Assembly (NCBI GenBank): GCA_012735245.1
Contig: JAAYHU010000144.1
Span: 1-44,085 of the forward strand
Direction of reading: 5' to 3'
DNA from: Tissierellia bacterium
GTDB taxonomy: Bacteria; Bacillota; Clostridia; Tissierellales; Tissierellaceae
DNA: 44,085 nucleotides
The notes under the pieces were generated by a model that saw only the letters and a list, made by a program, of their open reading frames with translations, made no database searches and was not told the origin of the DNA. This document shows positions 32,926-39,655 of the stretch, piece after piece (position 1 is the first letter of the stretch; each line of letters begins with the position of its first letter). A program made the translations under genes and the position numbers.

Positions 32926-32942
32926 CTAAGGTGGTGCCTTAT

Positions 32943-33881
32943 TTGAATATTGAAGAAAGATTGCTAAAAGGCGATAAGAGGGCCTGTGCCCGTCTTATTA
33001 CCATGTTAGAGTCAAACGATATGGAAGCAGTTGAAATACTAAAAAGATTATACAAAAATACTGGAAATGCCTATGTAATTGGAGTCACTGGCCCTCCTGG
33101 TGCAGGTAAATCTACACTAACGGATAAACTAGTCAAGGAGCTTAGAAAGAAAGATAAAAAAGTAGGAATTATAGCCATAGATCCCACCAGTCCCTTCAGT
33201 GGCGGAGCAATTTTGGGGGATAGGATTAGAATGAATGACTTATCCCTGGATAAAAACGTATTCATTAGAAGCATGGGTACCCGTGGCTCCTTAGGCGGCA
33301 TGTCAAGGGCCACTTGGGGGGCTGTAAAGGTCTTAGATATTTTTGGATGTGATTATATTTTTATTGAAACAGTGGGAGTAGGCCAATCAGAAGTAGATAT
33401 CGTAAAGACAGCAGATACAGTGCTTATGGTCATGGTTCCAAATTTAGGAGATGATATTCAAGCTATAAAGGCAGGTATTATGGAAATAGCAGACGTATTT
33501 GCCATAAATAAATCTGACTTAGATGGGGCAGACAAGACTAAATTGGAAGTAGAAATGAATCTAGATTTAAATGAGAATACGGATTATAGGCCTCCAGTAG
33601 TTAAAGTATCTGCAGCCAAGAATAAGGATATAGATGTATTATTGGAAAAAATCATAGAACATAGAAGGCATTTAGAAGAAACCAATAAACTGGAAGAAAG
33701 AAGAATTAGAAATAATAAGATGGAATTGTTGAAAATGGTAGAAGAGGATTTGATGAGTTTAATACTGGATAAGGCGGTGAAAGAAGATTTACTTGAAAGA
33801 TTAGCAAGGGACGTGACTTTAAGAAAAACAGACCCTTATACTGCAAAAGACGAGATATTAAAGTTAGTAGTTAATGAATAA
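32943..33881 (+). CDS. meaB: MeaB-family GTPase, methylmalonyl-CoA mutase chaperone
   Basis: This 312-aa G3E P-loop GTPase has Walker A GVTGPPGAGKSTLTDKL, IDPTSPFSGGAILGDRIRM, FIETVGVGQSE and the base-recognition NKSD. MeaB/MMAA proteins load AdoCbl into the mutase and protect or reactivate it. It lies directly after the mutase genes. The frame can be opened at tandem GTG codons from 32931, but AGGTGG there is better read as the Shine-Dalgarno for the TTG at 32943, giving an N-terminus (NIEERLLKGDKRA) typical of the family. Confidence 0.92.
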   Translation: MNIEERLLKGDKRACARLITMLESNDMEAVEILKRLYKNTGNAYVIGVTGPPGAGKSTLTDKLVKELRKKDKKVGIIAIDPTSPFSGGAILGDRIRMNDLSLDKNVFIRSMGTRGSLGGMSRATWGAVKVLDIFGCDYIFIETVGVGQSEVDIVKTADTVLMVMVPNLGDDIQAIKAGIMEIADVFAINKSDLDGADKTKLEVEMNLDLNENTDYRPPVVKVSAAKNKDIDVLLEKIIEHRRHLEETNKLEERRIRNNKMELLKMVEEDLMSLILDKAVKEDLLERLARDVTLRKTDPYTAKDEILKLVVNE

Positions 33882-33993
33882 TTAACATACTTCTTAAATA
33901 AGAAAAAATGCTAAATCACTCCTTTCGCTTTAAGATTTGATATCTACACGCAACTTTTCTCATATACTCGATTGACCTAGGCAATTGTCCATG

Positions 33994-34014
33994 GTCAACT
34001 GTCAACTGTCAATT
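33994..34014 (+). repeat. Three tandem copies of a 7-bp unit
   Basis: GTCAACT, GTCAACT and GTCAATT follow one another in the spacer between meaB and the epimerase gene. The preceding bases hold a TTGACC/GGTCAA inverted pair (33972-33977 and 33993-33998). This 150-bp spacer is the only large one inside the operon and has no terminator or clear promoter. Confidence 0.6.
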
Positions 34015-34037
34015 TGAAAAGAATGGGGGGTAAATGG

Positions 34038-34439
34038 ATGGTAACTAAAATTGACCATATCGGTATTGCTGTTAAAAACTTAGAGGAAACTCTAAAGTTC
34101 TACGAAGAAGTTTTAGGTATTAAAAGTGTAGGCACAGAGGTGGTAGAAGAACAAAAAGTAAAAGTAGCCTTTTTACCTATAGGAGATACTGAAGTGGAAT
34201 TACTTGAGTCTACAGATGAAGATGGGCCAATAGCTAAATTCATTGAAAAAAGAGGGGAAGGTATCCAGCATATAGCCTATAGGGTAGATAATATTGAAGA
34301 GGCCATAGAAAGATTAAAGGAAAAGGGAATAAGGCTTATAGATGAGAAGCCGAGATATGGTGCTGGTGGTGCAAAAATTGCATTTTTACACCCAAAATCA
34401 ACTTTTGGAGTTCTTATAGAGCTTTGTGAAAGAGATTAG
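34038..34439 (+). CDS. mce: Methylmalonyl-CoA epimerase
   Basis: This 133-aa vicinal-oxygen-chelate fold protein has a metal-binding His in [11 protein letters not shown], a second in [14 protein letters not shown] and a C-terminal Glu in LIELCERD. It converts (R)- to (S)-methylmalonyl-CoA, linking the mutase to the decarboxylase. The frame opens at TTG 34014 next to a tandem repeat, but GGGGGG 8 nt before the ATG at 34038 sets the start, which gives the normal family N-terminus. It ends 24 nt before mmdA. Confidence 0.95.
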
Positions 34440-34463
34440 TTGAAGAAATCAAGGAGGGAAAAC

Positions 34464-36008
34464 ATGAAGGAGAAAATTCAACAACTCCTAGATGCTGAGA
34501 AAAAAATAAAACTCGGTGGTGGGGAAGAAAGAATAGCAAAGCAGCACAAAGCTGGGAAGCTTACTGCAAGGGAAAGAATCAATCTTTTATTTGATGAAGG
34601 CAGCTTTGTAGAACTAGATAAGTTTGTAGAGCATAGGTGTACAAACTTCGGTATGGAAAAAGTAGAAGCTCCTGCAGATGGCGTAGTAACTGGATATGGT
34701 ACGGTAGATGGAAGGCTTGTGTTTGCCTACGCCCAGGATTTCACTGTCCTAGGTGGTTCCCTAGGGGAAATGCACGCTGCAAAAATATGTAAAGTTCAGG
34801 ATATGGCATTGAAAATGGGAGCTCCAATTATTGGGTTTAATGATTCTGGCGGTGCCAGAATTCAAGAAGGGGTAGATGCCTTATCCGGTTATGGACAAAT
34901 CTTCTATAGAAATACAATTGCCTCAGGAGTTATACCTCAAATATCAGTGATTTTGGGGCCTTGTGCCGGTGGAGCTGTATATTCTCCTGCTTTAACTGAT
35001 TTTATTTTTATGGTGGAAAATACTAGTAGAATGTTCATTACAGGGCCACAGGTAATAAAATCTGTAACAGGGGAGGAAGTAACCCAGGAAGAACTTGGAG
35101 GTGCAAGTACACACAACAAAGTATCCGGAGTAGCACATTTTATGGACAAGACAGAAGAAGAATGTATTGAAAGAATAAAGGTATTATTGTCCTTCCTGCC
35201 TTCCAATAATCTGGAAGAAGCACCTGTATTTGATACAGAGGATAATATCAATAGGATAGAAGAAAGGTTAAATGAAATTGTGCCAGTGAACCCAAATAAG
35301 CCTTATGATATGAAGGAAGTGATAAGGCTTATTGCTGACAATGGATATTTTTTCGAAGTACAAGAATATTTCGCACAGAATATAATAACTGGATTCATTA
35401 GATTGAATGGCAAGGCAGTAGGTGTGGTGGCAAATCAGCCTAGGTTCTTGGCAGGATGTTTAGATATCAATGCTTCAGATAAGGCTGCCAGATTTATAAG
35501 GACCTGTGACGCCTTCAATATTCCACTACTAAACTTAGTAGATGTTCCAGGATTTTTGCCAGGCACTGAGCAGGAATATGGTGGAATCATTAGGCATGGT
35601 GCAAAAATGCTTTATGCCTATAGTGAGGCAACGGTACCCAAGGTAACTTTAATAATTAGAAAGGCTTATGGCGGGGCATATCTTGCCATGTGTTCCAAGG
35701 ACTTAGGGGCTGACCAGGTATTTGCATGGCCAAATTCGGAAATTGCAGTTATGGGTCCAGAAGGAGCGGCAAATATCATATTCAAAAAGGACATAGAAAG
35801 CTCAGACAATCCTATTGAAACTAGGCAGGAAAAGATTATGGAATATAGGAATACTGTTGCAAATCCATATATTGCTGCCCAAAGAGGATTTGTAGACGAT
35901 GTACTGGTTCCAAGCATGACTAGGCCAAGGCTAATATCAGCCTTTGATATGTTAGAGTCCAAGAGGGAAGGCAGGCCTGCAAAAAAACATGGAAATATGC
36001 CTGTATAG
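34464..36008 (+). CDS. mmdA: Methylmalonyl-CoA decarboxylase alpha subunit (carboxyltransferase)
   Basis: This 514-aa acyl-CoA carboxylase beta-type carboxyltransferase has two crotonase-like halves. The first includes [19 protein letters not shown] and [21 protein letters not shown]. The second includes NVVD-type [31 protein letters not shown] and [11 protein letters not shown]. It moves the carboxyl group from (S)-methylmalonyl-CoA to biotin on MmdC. The start ATG at 34464 is behind AAGGAGGG; the longer frame from 34440 would contain that Shine-Dalgarno. Propionyl-CoA carboxylase beta is nearly indistinguishable by sequence, but mmdB and mmdD favour the decarboxylase. Confidence 0.92.
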
Positions 36009-36043
36009 ATGCAGAGCTAAGGGTTAGTTTAGGAGGATGGCAT

Positions 36044-36370
36044 ATGAATAATATTTCTAGTGTAGTAATAGGAATTTTAGGATTAATAGGATTGGCCTTT
36101 GTTTTAACATTATTTAAAAACATAGGCAGTGAAAAGGAAGAAATAGAGGTACCCATAAAAAAGGTAGATCCTGCAGTAAAAGCTGAAGTAAGGGAGAAAG
36201 TAGATGATGAAGAGTTAATAGCAGTTATTGCAGCTAGTATTGCAGCAAGCTTAGGGGTTAGGGTTCCAGAGATTAATATAAAGAGCATAAAAAGAATACC
36301 TCAAAGAACTCCTATATGGGCTCAAGCTGGTAGGCAAGAGTTAATCTATAGGAAACTACAATTAAAATAG
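36044..36370 (+). CDS. mmdD: Methylmalonyl-CoA decarboxylase delta subunit (OadG family)
   Basis: This 108-aa protein has one N-terminal membrane helix (about residues 5-25), an acidic/basic linker, a helical VDDEELIAVIAASIAASLGV segment, and a C-terminal IKRIPQRTPIWAQAGRQELI end. The W-x-x-x-GR ending is typical of MmdD/OadG-type anchors that hold the soluble alpha and biotin subunits to MmdB. It lies between mmdA and mmdC as in Veillonella and Propionigenium (known arrangement). The 37-aa frame at 30461 may be a second, truncated OadG-like partner. Confidence 0.85.
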   Translation: MNNISSVVIGILGLIGLAFVLTLFKNIGSEKEEIEVPIKKVDPAVKAEVREKVDDEELIAVIAASIAASLGVRVPEINIKSIKRIPQRTPIWAQAGRQELIYRKLQLK

Positions 36371-36386
36371 TTAAGGAGGCATTTGG

Positions 36387-36794
36387 ATGAGAAAGTTTAT
36401 AATAAAGGTAAATGGAAATACCTATGAGGTGGAAGTTGAAGAAGTAGGGATAGAAAAAGAAGCTAAAAGTCCTGTAGCTAAAATGGCTGCACCAGCACCA
36501 GCAGCTGCACCAGCACCAACACCAGAACCAAAGGTTGCAAGTCTTAAGGAGGAGAAAAAGGAAGTAGCAGTAGCTCCTGGCCAAGAAGTAATAGAAGCAC
36601 CAATGCCAGGTAATATTTGGAAAATAGAGGTAAAGGTGGGAGACGTAGTAAAGGCTGGAGACGTATTGTTGATCTTAGAAGCAATGAAGATGGAAAATGA
36701 AATAGTTGCACCAAGGGATGGGGTTGTGGCTAGTATCAATACTACAGAAGGAGCACAAGTAAATACGGGGGATAAATTAATAGTATTAGACTAG
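36387..36794 (+). CDS. mmdC: Biotin carrier subunit of methylmalonyl-CoA decarboxylase
   Basis: This 135-aa biotinyl protein has a short N-terminal beta segment (1-25), an Ala/Pro-rich flexible linker (about 30-50), and a biotinyl domain (about 66-135) with EAMKMENE; K101 is the biotinylated lysine. It shuttles CO2 from MmdA to MmdB. It begins 16 nt after mmdD behind AAGGAGG and is the last gene before a strong hairpin, so it ends the operon. Confidence 0.94.
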
Positions 36795-36800
36795 TATAGC

Positions 36801-36845
36801 GGATTATAGTAGAGAAATTCTCTACTGTAATCCTATTTATATTTC
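36801..36845 (+). terminator. Terminator after mmdC
   Basis: GGATTATAGTAGAG and CTCTACTGTAATCC form a long stem around AAATT, followed by TATTTATATTT. The T run is interrupted. Confidence 0.72.
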
Positions 36846-36881
36846 ATTTAATTTGTTAGGAAATTGAGAAGGGAGATTAAG

Positions 36882-37838
36882 ATGTTTGAAGGTTATATAA
36901 CAGATGTAAAGGGTATAAAAGTAGGACACTCCCAATCAAGGGAAGGCATGACAGGCTGTACTGTAATATTATGCGAAAAAGGGGCTACGGGTGGAGTTGA
37001 TGTTAGGGGTTCTGCTCCCGGTACTAGGGAAACAGATTTATTGAAAGCAGAAAAAATGGTAGATAAGATCCATGCAGTAGTCTTATCTGGTGGTTCAGCC
37101 TTTGGCTTAGAGGCAGCATCTGGTGTTATGAAATATCTAGAAGAAAAGGGTATAGGATTTGATGTAGGGATAACTAAGGTTCCCATAGTTACATCTGCTG
37201 TCATATTTGATTTAAATATAGGTGATTATAAAATCAGACCAGATATAAATATGGGGTATGAGGCTTGCAAAAATGCCAGTTTTGAAGAGAAGAGACAAGG
37301 CAACATTGGATGTGGTATGGGAGCAACAGTAGGGAAAATATTAGGGCACACAAGCTCTATGAAATCAGGCCTCGGTTCAGCCACTGTTAAGGTAGGAGAC
37401 TTAGTTGTATCTGCCCTTGTAGCTGTTAATAGCTTTGGTGACATATATGATTTTAGTACAGGAAGACAAATAGCTGGAGTATATGATTATGATAATAAGA
37501 AGTTACTCAATACTGTAGAGATTATGAAGGGTATGAATAATAATATAGGATTTAATATGACTAATACTACCATAGGGGTAATAGCTACCAATGCTATATT
37601 AACAAAGGCAGAAGCCAACAAGGTCTCACAAATGGCCCATAATGGCTTAGCATGGACCATCAATCCAATCCATACCATGGTAGATGGAGATACCATATTT
37701 ACCATGGCTACTAATGAAATCAAGGCAGATATAAACCTAATAGGAACTATGGCAGCAGAAGCCATGGCTAAGGCGGTGTTAAATGGAGTATACTATGCTG
37801 AAGGCAGCTATGGATTAAAAGCAGCTAAGGATATTTAA
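36882..37838 (+). CDS. P1-family (DmpA/S58) peptidase
   Basis: This 318-aa protein belongs to the P1/DmpA aminopeptidase family of N-terminal-nucleophile-like, self-cleaving hydrolases. Recognisable segments are DVKGIKVGHSQ, GGVDVRGSAPGTRETDLL, VVLSGGSAFGLEAASGV and NTTIGVIATNA. In the last of these the expected self-cleavage before the nucleophile would fall at the Asn-Thr bond. Members act on short peptides or amides with D- or beta-amino acids; the substrate is unknown. The ATG at 36882 follows GAAGGGAGA; the frame open to 36864 contains that site. It sits after the mmdC terminator with no obvious functional link to the pathway. Confidence 0.85.
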   Translation: MFEGYITDVKGIKVGHSQSREGMTGCTVILCEKGATGGVDVRGSAPGTRETDLLKAEKMVDKIHAVVLSGGSAFGLEAASGVMKYLEEKGIGFDVGITKVPIVTSAVIFDLNIGDYKIRPDINMGYEACKNASFEEKRQGNIGCGMGATVGKILGHTSSMKSGLGSATVKVGDLVVSALVAVNSFGDIYDFSTGRQIAGVYDYDNKKLLNTVEIMKGMNNNIGFNMTNTTIGVIATNAILTKAEANKVSQMAHNGLAWTINPIHTMVDGDTIFTMATNEIKADINLIGTMAAEAMAKAVLNGVYYAEGSYGLKAAKDI

Positions 37839-37971: not shown

Positions 37972-38000
37972 TTGAATTTATACAAAAATACAATTATAAT
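37972..38000 (+). promoter_or_regulatory. Sigma-A promoter of the ECF S-component/coaX operon
   Basis: TTGAAT (37972-37977), 17 bp and TATAAT (37995-38000) form a near-consensus promoter. It predicts a leader of about 98 nt carrying the two hairpins described next. Between 37839 and 37971 only AT-rich sequence with short CAATT/ATTCATAAT-like repeats is seen. Confidence 0.8.
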
Positions 38001-38013
38001 GGTTTTGTTAGAT

Positions 38014-38092
38014 AGCCAATATCAAGGATGAATTGGACTTTAAAACTATTATTACTTATTATTACGACTAGTATCTTTGGTGAACTAGAGCG
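38014..38092 (+). promoter_or_regulatory. Tandem bulged hairpins in the leader (pan-motif-like candidate)
   Basis: Hairpin 1 (38014-38039): CCAAT pairs with ATTGG, a 3' GA bulge follows, then ATC pairs with GAT around AAG; below, AG/CT pair with a bulged A37. Hairpin 2 (38065-38092): CTAGT pairs with ACTAG, the same 3' GA bulge, then ATC pairs with GGT around TTT; CG/CG pair below. The 5-bp stems differ in sequence but keep pairing, and the bulge is identical. Hairpin 2 abuts the Shine-Dalgarno GGGAGGG (38092-38098), which suggests control of translation. The pan RNA motif of pantothenate genes is recalled as tandem hairpins with bulged adenosines, so this may be a member. Confidence 0.6.
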
Positions 38093-38104
38093 GGAGGGAT
38101 TTTT

Positions 38105-38863
38105 GTGTCAAATGAAACAAGTAAATTAAGTTTAAGAAAGATTGTTATTATTGGAGTTTTAGGTGCAATATCAATTGTACTTGGTATGACTCCAATTGGG
38201 TTTATACCCATTGGGCCAACTAGAGCTACCATAATGCATATACCAGTGATTATTGGAGCCATTATGGAAGGGCCCATAGTGGGAGGGTTTATAGGGCTGA
38301 TATTTGGATTATTTAGCATATATCAAGCTTTGACTAACCCTACACCAGTATCCTTTGTATTTTTAAATCCTTTAGTATCGGTTATACCTAGAATTTTGAT
38401 TGGTATAGTATCTTATTATGTATATAATACCTTGAAAAATCTAGGGAAAAGAGGGACCTTAGGGCTTTTATATTTAATTTGGATAGGAACTATTGGATAT
38501 TTATTATACGGAATATTTACGAATATAAAGAACTTCCAAAGTACAGACCTTTGGATGCTTTTAATGAATATAGTTCTTTTATTATTAACCTTAACCTTAG
38601 CCTATTTAACCCATGCAAAATTTAGGGAAAAGGCCTTAGATGTTATTATATCTTCTGCAGTAGGTACTCTTACCAACACTGTTGGAGTGCTCTCCATGAT
38701 ATATCTACTATATGCAGAAAGATTTGTAGAAGCCTTGGGTGGAGATGTAACTACTGCAAGAAAAGTAATTGTTGGTATTGGTATAACTAATGGCATACCG
38801 GAGACCATAATTGCTATTATAATAGTAACTTCAGTAGTAGGAGCCCTAAAAAACAGGAGATAA
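38105..38863 (+). CDS. ECF transporter S component, probably for pantothenate
   Basis: This 252-aa membrane protein has about six to seven helices. It starts LSLRKIVIIGVLGAISIVLGMTP and carries the polar loop GPTRATIMHIPVIIGAIMEGP, typical of ECF substrate-capture (S) proteins. S components bind a vitamin and associate with a shared EcfAA'T module encoded elsewhere. Its direct coupling to coaX (type III pantothenate kinase), 18 nt downstream, suggests pantothenate (PanT-like); this is inference, since S components are hard to assign by sequence. The start is GTG behind GGGAGGG. Confidence 0.75.
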   Translation: MSNETSKLSLRKIVIIGVLGAISIVLGMTPIGFIPIGPTRATIMHIPVIIGAIMEGPIVGGFIGLIFGLFSIYQALTNPTPVSFVFLNPLVSVIPRILIGIVSYYVYNTLKNLGKRGTLGLLYLIWIGTIGYLLYGIFTNIKNFQSTDLWMLLMNIVLLLLTLTLAYLTHAKFREKALDVIISSAVGTLTNTVGVLSMIYLLYAERFVEALGGDVTTARKVIVGIGITNGIPETIIAIIIVTSVVGALKNRR

Positions 38864-38881
38864 GAATGGAAGGTGAAATTA

Positions 38882-39655
38882 TTGTTATTAGTCATTGATG
38901 TTGGCAATACTAACATAGTACTTGGGGTATATAAGGATGATAAATTGCTTTATGATTGGCGAATAGCCACCGATAAGGATAAAACCTCTGATGAATATGG
39001 ACTTTTATTTGAGCAGATATTTAAGTATAATGGATTGAGCACAAAGGATGTAAAAAATGTTATAATTTCTTCAGTAGTGCCACCTCTCATGCATACACTA
39101 CCTGCTATGAGTATAAAATATTTTAAAATAAGACCAATAGTTGTAGGACCTGGTGTAAAAACTGGGATGAACATAAAGTATGATAATCCAAGGGAAGTAG
39201 GAGCAGATAGGATAGTAAATGCGGTAGCAGCCTATGAAAAGTATGGAGGACCACTAATAATAGTAGATTTTGGTACAGCTATAACCTTTTGTGCAGTTTC
39301 CAAAAAGGGAGAATACCTTGGTGGAGCTATTACACCAGGAATTAAGATTTCCTCTGAAGCGTTGTTTTTAAGAACAGCCAAGCTCCCAAAGGTGGAAATT
39401 GCAAAACCAAAGAGTATAATAGCTAAAAATACAATAAACAGCATACAAGCAGGCTTAGTATATGGATATATAGGAATGGTTGATTATATAATAGAAAAGA
39501 TGATAGAAGAAATGAAGGAAGAAGGAGAAGATATAAAGGTTGTAGCAACTGGAGGTTTTTCTAACTTAATCGCAGCAGAAAGTAAATATATACAGAAAAT
39601 AGATAAACTATTGACTTTGGAAGGTCTAAGAATTATATTTAATAGAAATAAGTAA
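38882..39655 (+). CDS. coaX: Type III pantothenate kinase
   Basis: This 257-aa ASKHA-fold kinase has the phosphate loop [13 protein letters not shown] at the very N-terminus, [13 protein letters not shown], and [14 protein letters not shown] with the catalytic aspartate, plus [15 protein letters not shown] and [12 protein letters not shown]. It phosphorylates pantothenate, the first step of CoA synthesis, without using feedback by CoA. The frame opens at GTG 38873, but GGAAGGTG there serves as Shine-Dalgarno for the TTG at 38882, giving the family's usual [11 protein letters not shown] start. It is downstream of the S-component gene and ends at a terminator. Confidence 0.95.

Follow-up and report, generated by a model that had tools for sequence, protein, structure and literature searches.

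The window analysed here, 44,085 nt of contig JAAYHU010000144.1 from a Tissierellia bacterium, carries a predicted pantothenate uptake and phosphorylation operon (panT-coaX) whose 5' leader is, in nearly its whole length, most likely a cis-regulatory RNA of the pan family. We consider it probable, at roughly three chances in four, that this element acts as a translational off-switch on the operon, where the direction of control, its translational level and the effector are what we infer. The features of the locus are collected in Table 1.

Table 1. Features of the panT-coaX leader and operon in the window
Feature	Positions	Strand	Basis
Promoter-like TTGAAT-17-TATAAT	37972..38000	+	Consensus scan, 10/12; predicted transcript start ~38007
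pan hairpin 1	38014..38039	+	Rfam pan alignment; pair counts in 17 MAFFT-aligned leaders
A/T-rich linker, hairpin 1 to hairpin 2	38040..38064	+	Length 19-36 nt over 52 relatives, not conserved
pan hairpin 2	38065..38092	+	Rfam pan alignment; pair counts; bulged As kept in 52/52 relatives
Shine-Dalgarno GGAGG	38093..38097	+	Sequence; joined directly to the 3' strand of hairpin 2, likewise in 17/17 aligned panT-type leaders
ECF S component, PanT-like, 252 aa, GTG start	38105..38863	+	Pfam PF12822, 105.8 bits; PDB 4rfs, 6zg3
coaX, type III pantothenate kinase, 260 aa as listed	38873..39655	+	Pfam PF03309, 279.6 bits; NCBIfam NF009847 above cut-off

Inspection of the sequence confirmed two hairpins 52 nt apart with the 5-bp stems of the original prediction, CCAAT/ATTGG and CTAGT/ACTAG. 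Hairpin 1 is built of two lower pairs (A38014-T38039 and G38015-C38038), bulged A38037, its 5-bp stem, bulged A38021, a TC/GA pairing and a 6-nt loop; hairpin 2 has the lower pairs C38065-G38092 and G38066-C38091, an internal loop of A38067 against A38089 and G38090, its stem, bulged A38073, TC/GA and again a 6-nt loop. The closing pair C38065-G38092 directly abuts GGAGG, as had been claimed from the window sequence, and most relatives have the initial G of GGAGG paired within hairpin 2. The upper stem as first drawn (AUC/GAU with a 3' GA bulge and a triloop) did not survive comparison, since its pairs fail in 11, 6, and 14 of 17 orthologous leaders for hairpin 1 and in 13, 3, and 16 of 17 for hairpin 2. 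The canonical upper pairing, bulged A38021 or A38073 and then UC/GA, holds in 17/17 leaders, and the loops are therefore about 6 nt long rather than triloops. In its corrected form each hairpin consists of a lower stem, a 3'-side bulged A, 5 bp, a 5'-side bulged A, UC(C)/(G)GA, and a variable loop.

In a search against all Rfam families, positions 38013-38096 matched pan (RF01749) over its full length (1-92) with 35.3 bits (E 1.3e-4 in the stretch, 1.8e-4 genome-wide), and this was the sole match of the pan model in the genome. The curated gathering cut-off is 36.2 bits, so that a default Rfam scan is blank at this leader. Elements at the same position in relatives scored 36.6-50 bits, with 16 orthologous leaders exceeding the cut-off. 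The four bulged adenosines A38021 and A38037 (hairpin 1) and A38073 and A38089 (hairpin 2) were kept in 49, 50, 52, and 52 of 52 relatives, respectively. The tandem arrangement typical of pan is present in the window, and some distant relatives have a single hairpin. On structure and homology we count the window element among the pan RNAs, although strictly it falls 0.9 bits short of the curated score; association with a gene context is descriptive for pan and not a structural criterion, and one genome can hold both contexts. The pan match, the orthologous leaders and the PanT-like gene support the earlier reading of a pan-like element controlling pantothenate uptake and phosphorylation.

Among 100 relatives, 30 carried pan above the Rfam cut-off. 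Of 31 pan loci then examined, 17 (window included) lay before S component-coaX, with the 3' end of the motif forming the Shine-Dalgarno; the remaining 14 lay before panG (DUF2520), panB or panC genes. Across the 17 S component-type (panT-type) leaders the canonical structure paired in 97.8% of cells (98.7% for hairpin 1, with double changes at four pairs, and 97.1% for hairpin 2) against 79.4% for the structure first proposed, seven pairs had changed on both sides, and no shuffle reached the covariation score. The covariance model built from the 17 leaders scored the window element, itself one of the 17, at 84.5 bits (E 1.5e-15). The claim of covarying paired hairpins was thereby borne out beyond the single leader from which it had been made: covarying hairpins occur before S component-coaX in dozens of genomes, and both pan matches and conserved hairpins were found upstream of the orthologous operons. 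The folding energy of the window leader was no better than that of dinucleotide shuffles (z +0.83), and the case for the structure therefore rests on comparison.

The covariance model of the orthologous S component-type leaders (R1) was also run on 80 named loci found via the S component protein. Of these, 52 gave a match below 1e-4, in every case where the S component gene begins, and coaX lay within the fetched flank at 71 of the 80. The alignment fitted to the model, which leans towards the structure, paired in 96.4% of cells with double changes at 17 of 19 pairs. Named carriers include Tissierella praeacuta, T. creatinophila, [Clostridium] ultunense, Anaerosalibacter bizertensis, and Sporosalibacterium faouarense; loci of Peptoniphilus and Anaerococcus gave weak matches or none, nearly all of the weak ones correctly placed. 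In 391 genomes of the class R1 gave 93 matches, every one before genes of pantothenate or CoA supply: 82 before PanT-like S components (77 no more than 60 nt before PanT, and five further before weaker or truncated S components), nine before an OPT transporter and type II pantothenate kinase, and two before panB operons. Phylum-wide, the matches with a nameable downstream gene were confined to PanT-like and panB loci. Some families (L164, L167-L170) have single-hairpin pan RNAs fused to the panT Shine-Dalgarno, in which the Shine-Dalgarno-proximal hairpin is the one kept; this was the smallest natural form seen.

The first gene of the operon matched only two PDB chains, 4rfs (E 2.1e-14) and 6zg3 (E 1.1e-6), and nothing else up to E 1. 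We take these to be the S components of the L. brevis and L. delbrueckii ECF-PanT transporters, and the matches support a pantothenate-specific, PanT-like S component, as originally suggested. On pantothenate binding and transport by this protein it is the genomic context that bears, with coaX adjacent and a pan RNA upstream. The genome (completeness 87%) gave no PanB match and has a CoaB domain, so that pantothenate import followed by phosphorylation by CoaX forms a coherent route. Full-strength PanB was found in only three of the 17 panT-type genomes (G005, G052, and G074) and was partial or broken in two more. Upstream of the element, window positions 32931-37838 resemble a gene cluster for a methylmalonyl-CoA/propionyl-CoA decarboxylase (MeaB-like GTPase, epimerase-like protein, carboxyltransferase, and biotin carrier, judged by eye from translations), followed by an S58 peptidase family protein, a call which, unlike its by-eye neighbours, is a database match.

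We propose that at a sufficient supply of pantothenate or CoA an effector, either a metabolite of the CoA pathway or a protein sensing one, would bind the double-bulged-A hairpins and stabilise hairpin 2. With the Shine-Dalgarno directly following the 3' strand of that hairpin, ribosomes would be kept out, and pantothenate uptake and phosphorylation would drop. At low supply this hairpin, being marginally stable, would open and let the operon be translated. Since the leader is no more stable than its shuffles, such a switch needs a binder. Activation instead of repression may also be compatible with the sequence.

That the binder is a protein is a sub-case of this off-switch to which we give an even chance. 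Here the hairpins would be bound by a repressor protein, perhaps a dimer, that responds to a metabolite of the CoA pathway and blocks the Shine-Dalgarno. Weinberg et al. (2010; PMC2864571) took the simplicity and tandem arrangement of the structure to suggest a motif bound by a dimeric protein, and among our leaders the conserved bases are confined to the bulges and their neighbouring pairs while loop length varies from about 4 to 11 nt. The single-hairpin families show, however, that a site for a dimer is not required, and no candidate protein was found. CoaX was considered as an RNA-binding regulator and set aside, as it is present in 20/20 genomes examined and its co-occurrence does not discriminate.

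Control by transcription termination, as in the pan leaders of panB type, appears unlikely for the panT-type operons. An intrinsic-terminator candidate stands after pan in 28 of 43 panB-type leaders. By contrast, no terminator-like site was found in the window leader, nor in the leaders at 18 panT-type loci, where the few candidates fall inside coding sequence, and only 8-10 nt separate the motif from the start codon. A terminator is common in panB-type leaders (L002-L013, L027, L030, and most of L112-L141), and its 5' arm holds a UGUGUCU-like stretch complementary to the GACAGAGACAG strand in hairpin 2; this complementarity suggests a switch between hairpin and antiterminator; the pairing of hairpin 2 with the terminator arm had a mean z of -1.1, negative in 24 of 28 and individually at the 5% level in 6 of 28, values that are suggestive only. 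In many pan-panB operons the first gene encodes a Rossmann/DUF2520 protein (L002 1688-2545 and equivalents), presumably PanG, the alternative ketopantoate reductase. Elements of panB type and panT type were both present in 11 genomes of the class, and also in G052 among the relatives, a co-occurrence which implies one shared signal. We infer one sensor with two output devices, termination for the synthesis genes and ribosome blocking for the uptake genes, both of which fit repression at high CoA supply.

The promoter-like site predicted just upstream of the hairpins was found in the window. Of 52 orthologous leaders, 33 have a site of at least 10/12 in the 60 nt that precede hairpin 1, where shuffles would give 1.9, so transcription probably starts right before the hairpins. 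Imperfect palindromes directly downstream of a promoter might be read as DNA operators for a transcription factor, not as RNA structure, but covarying positions often hold a G-U pair (37 of 69 in one case), the bulges are asymmetric and conserved, the spacing of the hairpins varies over 19-36 nt without phasing, and hairpin 2 joins the Shine-Dalgarno directly, all of which make operators very improbable. Chance palindromes in A+T-rich DNA, for which the unremarkable folding energy and the sub-threshold Rfam score could be cited, are refuted for practical purposes by conservation, covariation, and exclusive genomic association.

Nine of the R1 loci (L190, L192-L198, and L200; genomes G124, G451, G293, G332, G114, G231, G468, G381, and G157) have a Shine-Dalgarno-fused pan before genes for a transporter of the OPT family (PF03169) and a type II (Fumble-type) pantothenate kinase (PF03630), and the Rfam pan model itself scored above its cut-off at several of them (G451, G332, G293, G231, and G468). 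A PanT match was absent in eight of these nine genomes and marginal in the ninth, so that the OPT protein may replace PanT as importer of a CoA precursor. In yeast, Opt1 takes up CoA precursors in the form of mixed disulfides with glutathione (PMC12406275), and by analogy such a role for the bacterial OPT protein is plausible. At the OPT loci the Shine-Dalgarno of pan belongs to a very short reading frame of some 7-25 codons (MYFISVFQT and MIKFIFISN, for example), which lies 120-460 nt ahead of the OPT gene and may encode a leader peptide gated by pan; terminators after this short frame were weak and mixed. Neither a CoaB domain match nor PanB was found in G114 (L195) and G468 (L197), which belong to different families, are both 99% complete (4% and 2% contamination), and do have CoaX. 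CoaB was seen in 11/11 panT-type control genomes, and five other OPT genomes have weakly matching, divergent CoaB, such that a still more divergent CoaB could escape detection. If G114 and G468 truly are without CoaBC, pantothenate lies off their path to CoA and the common signal would be 4'-phosphopantetheine or later; both are candidates for pantetheine-dependent CoA synthesis. A wider reading can be put forward in which pan would be a general CoA-supply switch with interchangeable outputs, a terminator before panB/panC/panG and Shine-Dalgarno occlusion before panT-coaX and OPT-kinase. Because these two OPT-kinase genomes show no CoaB domain and no PanB, the effector in this reading would be CoA itself or an intermediate from 4'-phosphopantetheine onwards, and the OPT protein would be a bacterial importer of pantetheine-type CoA precursors. 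We hold this extended reading tentatively and would give odds of about two to one against it.

Since 2010 pan has stood as a candidate regulator without a known effector, and the open literature searched ties it to pantothenate synthesis only. Its place before a transporter and first kinase, often in genomes without recognisable panB, indicates that its signal is not confined to synthesis, and it extends the range of pan from vitamin-synthesis to vitamin-uptake genes (vitamin B5) in many bacteria. The Shine-Dalgarno-fused form is short and so lends itself to direct assays of translation and binding, and pan offers a genomic handle for assigning transporters of pantothenate and CoA precursors, the OPT-family candidate included.

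Small translational riboswitches such as preQ1 mask the Shine-Dalgarno. The proposed switch shares with them an effector-stabilised stem adjoining or including that sequence; it differs in that pan may be a protein site and is without a known ligand, and membership in that class is not claimed. With the pantothenate ECF transporters the likeness lies in the first gene, whose best and only PDB matches are the PanT chains named above, at low identity. For pan itself, descriptions place the motif before panB/panC/panD operons (PMC2864571, PMC5670726). In the literature searched, which was mostly open-access, we found no pan ligand, no expression data for the family, and no pan before transporters or OPT genes, only before panB/C/D, and an earlier mention in subscription journals is possible; Sun et al. 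(2013; PMC3766115) do not mention pantothenate genes. The window element has in common with the motif of Weinberg et al. (RF01749; PMC2864571) the tandem hairpins with two conserved bulged As each, the position in the 5' leader of pantothenate-pathway genes and the full-length match. It differs from the published examples in standing before panT-coaX, fused to the Shine-Dalgarno and without the terminator of most panB-type leaders, and we rate this Shine-Dalgarno-fused panT-coaX form as new within the pan family in both gene range and expression platform.
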